Positions 613-4,640 of a stretch of DNA of 64,000 bases are shown piece after piece. This stretch comes from Atopobium deltae (GTDB lineage: Bacteria; Actinomycetota; Coriobacteriia; Coriobacteriales; Atopobiaceae): assembly GCF_001552785.1 (NCBI RefSeq), contig NZ_KQ959486.1:1-64000 (forward strand). The letters run 5' to 3'. Within the stretch, counting starts at the first letter, position 1; every line of letters begins with the position of its first letter. Both the position numbers and the translations under genes were made by a program. The notes below the pieces were generated by a model. The model did not search any database and had not been told where the DNA came from. It saw only the letters and a program-made list of their open reading frames with translations.

Positions 613-1521
613 TTAGCCTTGACACAGAGCCGTGACAAAGTCTTCGCCAAGCGCCTCTTTAAATGCCTGCGCACCATCGGAGGCAAGCGCCAAACGCGCA
701 TTGGTTGCCGCCCATGCTGCGGGAGTGCCCGTATCGCAACCCTCTTGTGGGTCAATAACGACGGCATACATCTCTTCCTCAGCAAGCAGGCGCTCCATGG
801 CATCTGTGAGCTGAATTTCGTTACCCGCGCCAGGGGTTTGGTCGGCCAACAAATCCATAATGCGCGGCGAAAGCAAATAGCGCCCCACAATAAACAGATG
901 AGAAGGAGCTTCTTCAACGGAGGGTTTCTCGACAAGCCCTGTAACCTTCCAAATGGCGCCATTTTCCTCGCCCGTTGCGTTATATCCGTCAAGGCTGCCC
1001 ACACATTCGCCTGCGATGATGCCGTAACGGCTTACCTGATCAGCGGGAACGGGGGCCACAGCAATGACGGAAGCATTGTTGTGCGCCGCAGAAACGGTCG
1101 CCATCTTGATGTTCATCTGCTTGTTGAGAACAAAATAATCGCCCAAAAGGACAAAAAATGGCTCGCCGTCGATCTTATTGGCAGCACAATGCACGGCATG
1201 GCCTAAGCCGAGCGGTTTCTCCTGGTAGACAAACGAAACGGAAAGGTTGCGCGCATCGGTAACCTTTTGAAGCTCGGCGTCCTTTCCGCGAATCGCGAGG
1301 AGCTGCTCGAAGGCGGAATCTTCCGAAAAATAGGCTTCGATCTGGGGTTTTTCGTGCGAATTGATAATGATGCACTCGTCGACGCCAGCGGGCGCCAGCG
1401 CTTCTTCGACGACATATTGGATGACAGGCTTATCAATAACGGGCAGGAGCTCCTTGGGAGTGCACTTAGTAGCAGGTAAGAAACGGGTCCCCAATCCAGC
1501 CGCAGGAATAAGAGCCTTCAT
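613..1521 (-). CDS. galU: UTP--glucose-1-phosphate uridylyltransferase
   Basis: The 302-residue protein makes UDP-glucose from UTP and glucose-1-phosphate for cell-envelope sugars. The N-terminus has the nucleotidyltransferase signature GLGTRFLPATKCTPKELLP at residues 9-27, followed by VIDKPVIQYVVEEA; VEKP occurs in the middle. The length fits bacterial GalU (about 290-305). An upstream in-frame start exists, but the ATG at 1521 is preceded by GAAAGGATCGACAC and gives the canonical MKALIPAAGLG start. It appears monocistronic; the next sequence downstream is a transporter remnant. Confidence 0.95.
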   Translation of the reverse strand: MKALIPAAGLGTRFLPATKCTPKELLPVIDKPVIQYVVEEALAPAGVDECIIINSHEKPQIEAYFSEDSAFEQLLAIRGKDAELQKVTDARNLSVSFVYQEKPLGLGHAVHCAANKIDGEPFFVLLGDYFVLNKQMNIKMATVSAAHNNASVIAVAPVPADQVSRYGIIAGECVGSLDGYNATGEENGAIWKVTGLVEKPSVEEAPSHLFIVGRYLLSPRIMDLLADQTPGAGNEIQLTDAMERLLAEEEMYAVVIDPQEGCDTGTPAAWAATNARLALASDGAQAFKEALGEDFVTALCQG

Positions 1522-1683: not shown

Positions 1684-2643
1684 TTAGGCGTCGTTCATGC
1701 AGCGAGCAATGTCTGCAACAAGATTGATATTTGAGGTATTGCCAACGCCAATAATGCGAACACCGCTATCGAGAAGAGCATTAATATCCTGCGGAAATAC
1801 TTCGTTCGCGGGAATTGTGTCTGTCACAACAAAAAGACAGCCGCAGCCACACTGCTCGGCCGCAGCCACAGAATCTTTGCACACGGATCGAGCAAAGCTT
1901 GTCGAAACATTGCTAAATCCTACGGCGTCGGCGCCCAGCTCGACTAAGCGCTGATATACGTGCTGCAACGAGCGTTGTTGTACTTGTTTTGGTGTGAGTG
2001 GAACTTGCTCGGGTGTTTGCGGCGACTGCGGCGTTTGACACATCTCATCTACCAACGCTTGTTGAGACAAGCAACACATCAGCGGACGAGAAAACACAGG
2101 TCGTATGGCGCACAGTGCCTGTGTTGCAGCCTCAACGGAAGGCATATCGTAAAGCACAATTCCATGCGCTGCAGCCTTCGCAAATGCTTGCGCCTGCTGA
2201 GCATACAGCCGTGCATCTTCTGCAGAATCGGCATCTTCTACATGATCGATAAGCCCGAGCACAAAGCGCGGAGCTGCCTTATACGCAGCGCGGGTAGCCT
2301 GAAAACACAGGCTTTCGACCCGCAACGATTCGTCGAGCTTGCGGAGTTTATCAACAGAGCACTGGCGTGTTTGCGTAACCAACGCCGCGGCACCTGCCCC
2401 CATCTGCATGTTGTAGAGTTGCGTTAAGGTTTCGGGCTCCTCAGTTACCCACAAGGCATCGCACATGGTTTCGGCGAACGGCAGTTCAGCTAAAAATCCC
2501 GACAAGCCTGCCGAGAAGACCAAGCACTGGGGGATTTGCCCCGTCAGTATCTGTCCCAGGTCATTAGATGCCTCTTCGGTAGCGCCATCATGCGTGGGAC
2601 GGTTCCACAACGAACAAGCGTAATGCCCATCCGCGCTCATCAT
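1684..2643 (-). CDS. Homocysteine S-methyltransferase-like protein lacking the zinc cysteines
   Basis: The 319-residue protein follows the layout of the Met-H/homocysteine S-methyltransferase TIM barrel: LVFSAGLSGFL near the start, LYNMQMGAGAAALVTQT (family: raYleAGAdiitTnT), IVLYDMPSVEAATQAL, GADAVGFSNVS and a terminal GVRIIGVGNTSN. The last two normally read GxNC and GGCCGTTP and hold the three zinc-binding cysteines; here they are replaced. Methyl transfer to homocysteine is therefore doubtful, and a regulatory or new catalytic role is possible. Its ATG overlaps the stop of the DtxR-type gene (ATGATGA), indicating translational coupling. A low-complexity insert rich in TPQ and TPKQ lies near residues 200-220. 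The family call rests on motif order only. Confidence 0.55.
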   Translation of the reverse strand: MMSADGHYACSLWNRPTHDGATEEASNDLGQILTGQIPQCLVFSAGLSGFLAELPFAETMCDALWVTEEPETLTQLYNMQMGAGAAALVTQTRQCSVDKLRKLDESLRVESLCFQATRAAYKAAPRFVLGLIDHVEDADSAEDARLYAQQAQAFAKAAAHGIVLYDMPSVEAATQALCAIRPVFSRPLMCCLSQQALVDEMCQTPQSPQTPEQVPLTPKQVQQRSLQHVYQRLVELGADAVGFSNVSTSFARSVCKDSVAAAEQCGCGCLFVVTDTIPANEVFPQDINALLDSGVRIIGVGNTSNINLVADIARCMNDA

Positions 2644-3185
2644 GCTGTGACGGGCTTCTCGTCAGTAGACCGCGTGTCCGCGCCCTGTTTTTTCGGATGC
2701 TTGGGAGTGGTATCAAAAACAGGTTTTACCGTGACGTTACCGACGAACTGCTCGTCATCCTCATCATCAATCGAAAAGCCCTGATTTTCCAGGAAGGCAA
2801 GCCAGCGGCGGATTGTATCGCGAGAAAGCGCATGCTCCATAAGGCAGGCCTCTTCGTTGGCGACCTCGGGATTGACATCCAAGTCTTTGATGAGAAAGGC
2901 GCGCAAAACCTTGTGCGTTCTCCAGACCTCCGAGCCGTACTCGCGACCATAGTCGGTCAACACAATGCGACCGTAGCGAGTTTGTTCGACGCAGCCCGCT
3001 TCTTTGAGGGTATTTATGGCTTTGTTAACACTTGCTTTTGAAACATTGAGCTGCTCTGCCACATCCACAGAGCGAATGCCCATGGGATTGTCACCATCGG
3101 CAATGGTAAGGCGATACATAGCTTCAAGATAATCTTCACTTGCCATCGAAAGGCGATGCTCATCAAAAGATTCAGTCGCGGACAT
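2640..3185 (-). CDS. DtxR/MntR-family metal-dependent transcriptional regulator
   Basis: The 181-residue protein has an N-terminal winged helix (SEDYLEAMYRL, VDVAEQLNVSKASVNKAI, RYGRIVLTDYGREYG) and the dimerisation/metal domain (THKVLRAFLI, NEEACLMEHALS) with the His, Glu, Cys and His residues used as metal ligands in DtxR/MntR. The C-terminus after residue 140 is acidic and then basic, and does not look like the SH3-like domain of long DtxR proteins. The start follows a strong AGGAGGTCAAG site. Family members repress metal uptake genes when Fe or Mn is replete. Co-translation with the methyltransferase-like gene suggests a shared function; targets are unknown. Confidence 0.85.
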   Translation of the reverse strand: MSATESFDEHRLSMASEDYLEAMYRLTIADGDNPMGIRSVDVAEQLNVSKASVNKAINTLKEAGCVEQTRYGRIVLTDYGREYGSEVWRTHKVLRAFLIKDLDVNPEVANEEACLMEHALSRDTIRRWLAFLENQGFSIDDEDDEQFVGNVTVKPVFDTTPKHPKKQGADTRSTDEKPVTA

Positions 3186-3238: not shown

Positions 3239-3302
3239 GTGCGCTGCCCGCAGAAGCGCTGCGTTAGACCTTCCGCTGTGCGCTGCCCGCAGGAGCGCTG
3301 CG
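3239..3302. repeat. Two near-identical 25-bp repeats in the dtxR upstream region
   Basis: GTGCGCTGCCCGCAGAAGCG and its continuation CTGCG (3239-3263) recur at 3278-3302 with one change (A to G), period 39 bp. Each copy contains a small CGCAG/CTGCG dyad. They lie between the dtxR-like start and the murA stop, where the dtxR promoter should be. Confidence 0.7.
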
Positions 3303-3368: not shown

Positions 3369-4640
3369 TTATTCTTCAATTTCCAACGAGCAGCGACGAG
3401 CGTCCGCGCCGAGCGAGACCAGTTTGTCGACAAAGCCCTCATAGCCGCGGTCGATGTGATGAATCGCGCTGATAGTCGTAGTGCCATCGGCAACAAGGCC
3501 CGCCATAGCAAGAGCTGCACCACCACGAAGATCAGGGGCCTTAACCTGCGCTCCCGATAGACACTTCACGCCATGCACAATGGCGTGATGCCCCTCGATG
3601 GTAATATCGGCACCCATACGCGAGAGCTCACTGGCAAAAATAAAGCGATTCTCAAAAACGTTTTCGGTAATGACGCAGTTACCATTTGCAAGTGCCAACA
3701 CGCACATGGCCTGCGCTTGCACGTCAGTAGGAAATCCTGGGAACGGCAGTGTTTGAATATCGACAGGCTGCAGCGGACGCGTACGACTTGCCACGACTTC
3801 ATGATCGCCGCGGTCGATCGTAATGCCCATGGCCTCGAATTTTTTGAGGACCATACCCAAATGAACAGGCTCAAAACCCGAAACACGCACGGGGCCGCCC
3901 GTCAAACCACCAATTGCCAAAAACGTTGCGGCCTCGACGCGGTCGCCCACCACGCGGTGCTCCACGGGATGCAGCTCATCAACGCCTTCGATTTCGATCA
4001 GTGGGGTTCCAGCGCCTCTAATATGCGCGCCCATCTCGTTAAGCATGTTAGCAAGGTCAACAATCTCGGGCTCACGCGCGGCATTGTCAATAATGGTCGT
4101 ACCCTTCGCATGAACGGAGGCCATCATAAGATTTTCGGTTGCGCCCACGCTGGCAAATTCAAGCGTCACCGAGGCTCCTTTAATGCCATGCGGCGCCGAT
4201 GCATGAATATTTCCGTGCGAGACATCGAACTCAACACCCAAAGCCTCGAGCCCCAAAATATGCATGTCGATTTTGCGAGCGCCAATATTACACCCGCCTG
4301 GCATAGCGACAACAGCCTTGCCAAAGCGCGCGAGCAGTGGCCCCAGCACAGCTGTTGATGCGCGCATTTGCACAACAAGCTCGTACGGGGTCCTCCACTT
4401 GTCAACCTGTGTGGTATCGATGATAAGTTCGTGCTTGCCAGCAACGGTAATCTGCGCACCAAGGCGCTTTAGCACCTTGCCCATGATATGAACGTCAGAA
4501 ATGTCGGGGACGTTGGTAAGGGTTGTTTTTCCGCAGGTCATGACTGTTGCAGCCATCAATTTAAGGGCTGAATTTTTGGCTCCGTAGACGCTTACCTCGC
4601 CAGAAATGGGGCGTCCCCCTTCAATCTGAATAACGTCCAT
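3369..4640 (-). CDS. murA: UDP-N-acetylglucosamine 1-carboxyvinyltransferase
   Basis: The 423-residue enzyme carries out the first committed step of peptidoglycan synthesis, adding enolpyruvate from PEP to UDP-GlcNAc. Visible are the substrate Lys-Asn at residues 22-23 ([12 protein letters not shown]), the loop [14 protein letters not shown] with the catalytic, fosfomycin-sensitive Cys117, and [19 protein letters not shown] near the end. The ATG at 4640 follows GGAGGATCG; upstream in-frame codons add only non-homologous sequence. It is transcribed in the same direction as the atp operon just upstream but is separated from atpC by 123 bp containing GC-rich inverted repeats, so it is probably a separate unit. 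Confidence 0.95.

Follow-up and report, generated by a model that had tools for sequence, protein, structure and literature searches.

The closest described relatives of the protein analysed here are the homocysteine domain of the methionine synthase MetH and the methyltransferases MmuM and BHMT, and those of the regulator encoded next to it are MntR and DtxR. In MetH, three cysteines are presumably the zinc ligands and DGAMGT, NTF and ETF the substrate motifs; we take MmuM and BHMT to be zinc enzymes with an intact triad. An SH3-like third domain is presumably a feature of DtxR. The gene of Atopobium deltae described here, hereafter the barrel gene, encodes a protein predicted to have the methyltransferase fold, in which the zinc cysteines are replaced. 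The window, i.e. the whole stretch of DNA analysed (64,000 nucleotides), contains the following features at this locus.

1684..2643, minus strand: zinc-less homocysteine-methyltransferase-fold protein, 319 aa (exact ORF; Pfam, AlphaFold2 model, fold match)
1903..1920, minus strand: GFSNVS, residues 242-247, replacing GxNC, with N245 at the first zinc-cysteine position (alignment)
1732..1749, minus strand: GVGNTS, residues 299-304, replacing GGCCGT, with G301 and N302 at the other two zinc-cysteine positions (alignment)
2545..2586, minus strand: N-terminal stretch, residues 20-33, with a helix at 21-33; Atopobiaceae pattern D20-A21-L29-L33 (model and conservation)
2359..2361, minus strand: Cys95, on the loop that follows strand 2, at the former catalytic face (residue conservation)
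2640..3185, minus strand: DtxR/MntR-type metalloregulator, 181 aa (Pfam domains, alignments)
2640..2753, minus strand: C-terminal extension of the DtxR, about 37 aa (comparison with A. minutum and A. fossor)
2640..2643, minus strand: stop/start overlap ATGA, 4 nt (sequence)
613..1521, minus strand: galU, downstream neighbour (ATG picked from sequence)
3369..4640, minus strand: murA, upstream neighbour (start placed by likeness to A. fossor)

The minus-strand order is atpA, atpG, atpD, atpC, murA, dtxR, barrel gene and galU. We assigned the atp, mur and gal housekeeping names from the translations, and on this basis take 613..1521 to encode the UTP-glucose-1-phosphate uridylyltransferase and 3369..4640 to be murA; the ortholog of the window galU at locus L168 matches Pfam NTP_transferase. 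Between murA and dtxR lies a G+C-rich 23-base unit in two copies (3241-3263 and 3280-3302), and a search allowing up to 3 mismatches found no further copy in the window.

The initial annotation had proposed a homocysteine methyltransferase fold, and the structure prediction bears this out. By sequence, the protein falls above the Pfam cut-off for PF02574: S-methyl_trans is its sole Pfam match (28.6 bits for a cut-off of 22, E 1.6e-6, residues 60-195). The window protein alone retrieved no methyltransferase in a sequence search of the PDB, and a profile of 24 relatives, which takes in intact members, matched 1q7m (E 9e-41). The AlphaFold2 model, built for the window protein alone from 20 sequences (its own and 19 from named records), has a mean pLDDT of 88.6 and a pTM of 0.88. 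Its top structural match is the homocysteine barrel of MetH (Z 30.8), the MetH, BHMT and MmuM barrels all score between Z 24.7 and 30.8, and the next solved chain after them scores Z 18.7. The model thus points to the homocysteine-barrel fold of PF02574 and not to a different one. Matches to a Methanosarcina mazei methyltransferase, uroporphyrinogen decarboxylase and others (Z about 16-19, VIA-align) were set aside as general barrel likeness.

The replacement of GxNC and GGCCGTTP by GFSNVS and GVGNTS also held when the protein was aligned with its relatives. With 57 barrels aligned, N245, G301 and N302 occupy the zinc-cysteine columns; none of these is a substitute metal ligand, and the window protein has no cysteine within 4 residues of either zinc site. 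The Asp, Asn and Glu columns of DGAMGT, NTF and ETF hold S44, Q91 and Y165. Hence, the protein has neither the zinc triad nor the conserved substrate motifs of PF02574. An active methyltransferase with substituted zinc ligands is conceivable in this group, since one other family has His-Cys-Cys at these positions (L124, L125), but we regard it as very improbable here: the three positions read N, G, N in the window and N, G, K in both congeners, A. minutum and A. fossor, which are the other two Atopobium genomes compared. A compensating site built from the CGCGC run (residues 265-269) or the CC pair (190-191) was rejected, as both are absent from A. minutum and A. fossor.

The metabolic setting also speaks against such an activity. 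Each of the three Atopobium genomes has a single PF02574 match, to the zinc-less gene, and in none of them did we find MTHFR or detect MetH; at 97-99% completeness, these absences are likely rather than certain. Meth_synt_2 (MetE) had no match in the window genome. Weak matches to PF01053 in Atopobium, at most 27.9 bits, were not accepted as true MetB or MetC. LuxS, a source of homocysteine, is present in all three genomes. Since LuxS is present while MTHFR and MetH were not found, homocysteine is probably made in Atopobium but not remethylated from folate. A disguised methionine synthase was rejected on the lost zinc site and the missing MTHFR, together with the failure to detect MetH in the genus and MetE in the window genome.

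We then asked how widespread the altered barrel is. PF02574 matches are present in 79 of 100 related genomes; many of these contain a long MetH frame, to which members of several of the order's families add a second, short frame. Of a 59-genome sample of the class, 34 genomes belong to other orders: a single match was obtained in 32 of these, two in G290 and none in the remaining one. These matches lie nearly all in MetH-length frames, and a few are shorter, possibly because of cuts at contig ends. Among the genomes searched, this order was the only one in which we found an extra homocysteine barrel beside MetH. We assigned the relatives to families and orders ourselves: Atopobiaceae (f1) and Coriobacteriaceae (f10) were identified through named records, and f2 is taken to be Eggerthellaceae.

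The tree of these barrels (57 sequences, 302 columns) is unrooted and has some long branches. It recovered Atopobiaceae (22 sequences), Coriobacteriaceae (12) and Eggerthellaceae (6) as clades, each at 100/100. The Atopobiaceae clade comprises the copies from 21 genomes of the family and L063, a named record placed by the tree. None of its 22 members has the CC pair or even two of the three cysteines, and L014 has a cysteine at the first position. This is the pattern of a pseudoenzyme, with catalytic residues lost clade-wide (22 of 22 without the triad) on a retained fold, the latter modelled for the window protein only. The triad is intact in all 12 Coriobacteriaceae (Collinsella), where QGPMG or a close form replaces DGAMG. 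The QGPMG-type motif in these intact, dtxR-linked enzymes (L020, L022, L085 and others), at the place of the DGAMG of MetH, hints at a different substrate geometry. Other families are mixed, with intact (L117, L119, L123) and altered copies (L019, L120, L121, L122, L126). The His-Cys-Cys orphans of family f4 (L124:424-1377 and L125:1613-2593) may form a zinc site in which one ligand is exchanged. In family f9 (L126:2955-4739), an altered barrel is fused to the pterin-binding domain PF00809, like half a MetH minus the zinc site. The zinc state requires at least five changes on the tree when His-Cys-Cys is scored as lost. If the ancestor had an intact site, as MetH does, repeated loss is the simplest reading of these sequences.

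Eggerthellaceae lack the triad as well, as read in their best 30 loci and in 6 more that are partly the same genes. None of the best 30 has the triad; Thr (28 loci) or Ser (2) occupies the first zinc position, and Gly invariably the third. The profile of this orphan matched 103 of the 109 Eggerthellaceae genomes searched with an E-value of at most 3.3e-39, three weakly and three not at all. Such fixation and spread, together with several nearly invariant positions at the barrel top, would be expected if the barrel were a repurposed enzyme or small-molecule receptor, holding a zinc-free ligand at its top via newly fixed residues (the Eggerthellaceae Thr, or Cys95 in Atopobiaceae). Position 95 is Cys in 14 of the 22 Atopobiaceae and Ala in all 12 intact Coriobacteriaceae, and this cysteine could join a new active site. 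We consider this alternative unlikely. The two zinc-less families form separate clades with intact ones between them, so a single shared new chemistry is not required.

Conservation of the catalytic face provides a further argument against a repurposed enzyme or receptor. We compared the catalytic-face loops, with regions set by hand from DSSP, with the positions elsewhere in the protein. In zinc-less Atopobiaceae the loops average 1.94 bits vs 2.13 elsewhere (permutation P for a lower value 0.057, and 0.044 in a thinned set, i.e. marginal), whereas they are the more conserved part in intact Coriobacteriaceae (3.54 vs 3.21, P for a higher value 0.007) and in a diverse intact set (3.16 vs 2.70, P 0.0003), in groups that differ in divergence (mean pairwise identity 0.27 in zinc-less Atopobiaceae, 0.54 and 0.39 in the intact sets). 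The 30 Eggerthellaceae loci do not show extra conservation either (3.11 vs 3.30, P for a lower value 0.10). The extra conservation of the catalytic face thus seems to be gone in the zinc-less Atopobiaceae clade, albeit on marginal values. What is conserved lies elsewhere: L33, W65, G84 and A120 are kept in all 22 Atopobiaceae, and Asp20 of the first-helix pattern D20-A21-L29-L33 in 21 of them, the window protein having G20. The pattern is kept even in L006, which has no dtxR.

The barrel gene could also be a slowly decaying relic, i.e. a methyltransferase that became superfluous, lost its zinc site and is disappearing from one lineage after another. This is possible in Atopobiaceae, if rather improbable. 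The gene was found in just 21 of the 122 Atopobiaceae genomes that are at least 85% complete, and it lies behind dtxR in 20 of these. Two further matches were left out of this count: that in G033, judged by sequence to be an unrelated frame, and that in G104, which is another methyltransferase, its motifs intact, in a 7-kb locus without DtxR. We examined 80 named dtxR loci, which are the best 80 of 402 confirmed matches and thus biased to close relatives. In 57 of them galU follows dtxR with no barrel match between or near. Twelve have the order dtxR, gene, galU, seven have dtxR and the gene without galU in the locus, two have other arrangements, and two end with the contig.

Rates of evolution bear on the same question. 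We estimated dN/dS by the Nei-Gojobori method, and the values are rough because several dS exceed 1. In Atopobiaceae, the barrel gene gave 0.18 (L015/L016), 0.305 (L007/L011), 0.14 (L004/L010) and 0.16 (A. minutum/A. fossor). Constraint is weaker in two of the six usable pairs (L007/L090, 0.49; L009/L036, 0.55), and L004/L008 and L008/L010 are saturated. Elsewhere, the values are 0.10-0.20 in four intact Coriobacteriaceae pairs, 0.21 in the Eggerthellaceae pair L112/L114 (L111/L116 being saturated) and 0.21 in L124/L125. The neighbours dtxR, galU and murA have lower values than the barrel gene in 17 of 18 comparisons across the six usable Atopobiaceae pairs, the exception being dtxR in L004/L010 (0.195), where the N-terminal starts of the frames are uncertain. 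This faster evolution, like the long tree branches, would suit a relic. However, the gene has no in-frame stop in the 21 Atopobiaceae carriers despite deep divergence, dN/dS is 0.14-0.31 in four of the six usable pairs, as expected of a pseudoenzyme kept under selection, and the related orphan is matched in nearly all Eggerthellaceae genomes.

We next turned to the regulator. The ORF at 2640..3185 matches Fe_dep_repress and Fe_dep_repr_C (36.4 and 53.9 bits, both over the cut-off) and aligns with MntR of E. coli and others, including a solved MntR; it stays under the cut-offs of all the MntR/DtxR equivalog models listed. In 22 aligned sequences, C114, E117 and H118 are invariant and D18, E21 and H91 nearly so. 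These are presumably the primary metal ligands, by analogy with MntR and DtxR, and the full set of candidate ligands is retained in these sequences. The barrel gene was described from the start as overlapping the end of a metal-dependent repressor. This is correct, as the TGA stop of dtxR overlaps the ATG of the barrel gene by 4 nt and both DtxR domains are present, but the overlap is local to the window species: the spacer is 77 nt in A. fossor and 124 nt in A. minutum. The C-terminus of the window DtxR is about 37 residues longer than in these two species, and its stop thereby meets the next start. To judge from the sequences, this extension looks like read-through into a former spacer between dtxR and the barrel gene.

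Tight coupling is nonetheless usual in Atopobiaceae. In 17 of 21 pairs, a possible start falls within -17 to +15 nt of the stop codon of dtxR, and the other four spacers measure 48, 48, 77 and 124 nt. The search for conserved dtxR-methyltransferase pairs showed that dtxR immediately precedes the barrel gene, in the same orientation, in 21 of the 22 Atopobiaceae sequences and in all 12 from Coriobacteriaceae. Chance is excluded, because relatives keep both the gene pair and the altered motifs. This gene order suggests that most species having the barrel gene produce the barrel and the metalloregulator from one messenger.

An inverted repeat, GGTAAA-N12-TTTACC, precedes dtxR in A. fossor and A. 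minutum (L031, L032) and was considered as a candidate operator. It occurs in 4 of 81 dtxR upstream stretches, i.e. those of A. fossor and A. minutum, each counted twice; another 26 dtxR loci were left out of this count because the anchor pattern failed. The exact repeat was found nowhere else across all loci examined. The window has no exact copy, and its two 2-mismatch copies are at chance level and away from dtxR. We therefore dropped this repeat as a DtxR operator.

The conserved position behind dtxR, mostly with little or no spacer, and the complete set of candidate metal ligands of the regulator would both fit a dedicated sensor subunit that binds DtxR and tunes its metal response. This is a special case of an adaptor role and overlaps with it; we hold it to be unlikely. 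The initial annotation had suggested a regulator-plus-sensor pair or a new enzyme, and the gene contents speak against the former in its strict form. An obligate unit is unlikely, judging from the gene contents, because dtxR stands without the barrel gene in the 57 loci mentioned above. Conversely, the genome G023 keeps the barrel gene (murA, LCP-like gene, barrel gene, nrdD; the LCP-like name is our assignment) and no dtxR was found in it, at 85% completeness. In the best 30 Eggerthellaceae loci (L174-L203), DtxR is absent from all 30 in the roughly 1.5 kb viewed on each side. Finally, the intact Coriobacteriaceae enzyme holds the same position behind dtxR, so loss of zinc is not necessarily the reason for the linkage to dtxR.

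Other neighbours recur around the gene. In G013 and G041 the order is dtxR, barrel gene, nrdD, and in family f3 (L019) dtxR lies about 0.6 kb off on the opposite strand. In the best 30 Eggerthellaceae loci, nrdD is found downstream on the same strand in 20 (gaps of 179-1117 nt); galU is present in 6 loci and rarA in 2. The three NrdD neighbours that we checked have NRDD and ATP-cone domains. The zinc-less barrel lies likewise upstream of nrdD in L112, L113, L114 and L115. Gene adjacency may reflect an old housekeeping cluster instead of a working unit.

The most likely reading of these results is a neofunctionalised, non-catalytic barrel. We favour, with a little better than even confidence, the view that the window gene is the Atopobiaceae branch of the extra homocysteine barrel and encodes a pseudoenzyme serving as a non-catalytic binding or adaptor module. 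Once zinc was lost, the thiol would no longer be activated and homocysteine would not be methylated. The constraint left would bear on the barrel core and on the N-terminal D-A...L...L helix, the latter being the likely contact surface of the binding or adaptor module. Production from one messenger with the metalloregulator, as the gene order suggests, would make metal- or redox-responsive control the likeliest setting for this module, possibly control of neighbours such as nrdD. A more specific scenario, which we put forward as speculation and think quite improbable, is that the metal-free barrel is a thiol or redox receptor made with the metalloregulator. In Atopobium, it would read unused homocysteine or a related thiol via Cys95 and alter DtxR; its Eggerthellaceae relative would serve NrdD.

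The comparison with known systems shows what was kept and what was lost. The homocysteine domain of MetH (Thermotoga maritima 1q7m/3bof, Thermus thermophilus 9cbp) has the same barrel as the model (Z 30.0-30.8 over 266-275 residues, rmsd 2.3-2.4 Å). Yet the window protein is only 14-17% identical to it, is devoid of the zinc cysteines and of DGAMGT, NTF and ETF, and carries no folate, B12 or reactivation domains. MmuM (5dmm, Z 27.8) and BHMT (1lt8, Z 28.1) also share its fold. The NCBIfam methyltransferase models match far under their cut-offs, e.g. 25.2 bits where PRK08645 requires 453. The window regulator shares both DtxR domains with MntR and DtxR, and differs by its C-terminal extension and the lack of a third, SH3-like domain. 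Searches of the open-licence PMC literature turned up no description, for these bacteria, of either a zinc-less homocysteine barrel or a pairing of dtxR with a methyltransferase gene.

The closest comparisons are within the order, among related gut and mouth bacteria. The intact Coriobacteriaceae orphan (Collinsella; L020, L099) occupies the same slot directly behind dtxR, but unlike the window protein it keeps GVNCC, the CC pair, NTF and ETF, with the QGPMG-type motif for DGAMG, and its next neighbour in L085 is phosphoglucomutase instead of galU. The Eggerthellaceae orphan is, like the window protein, an extra homocysteine barrel without the triad (30 of 30 loci read), but it forms a separate clade with its own fixed residues and lies beside nrdD or galU instead of dtxR. 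This copy is widespread, often next to nrdD, in medically visible gut bacteria. As far as sequences can tell, the clade-wide zinc-less derivative of a known enzyme is real. Because these proteins match a homocysteine methyltransferase family in Pfam, bacteria without methionine pathways, such as Atopobium, may be wrongly credited with them. From the intact Collinsella enzyme to the zinc-less copies of several families, a single order offers a natural series of a metalloenzyme becoming a non-enzyme.
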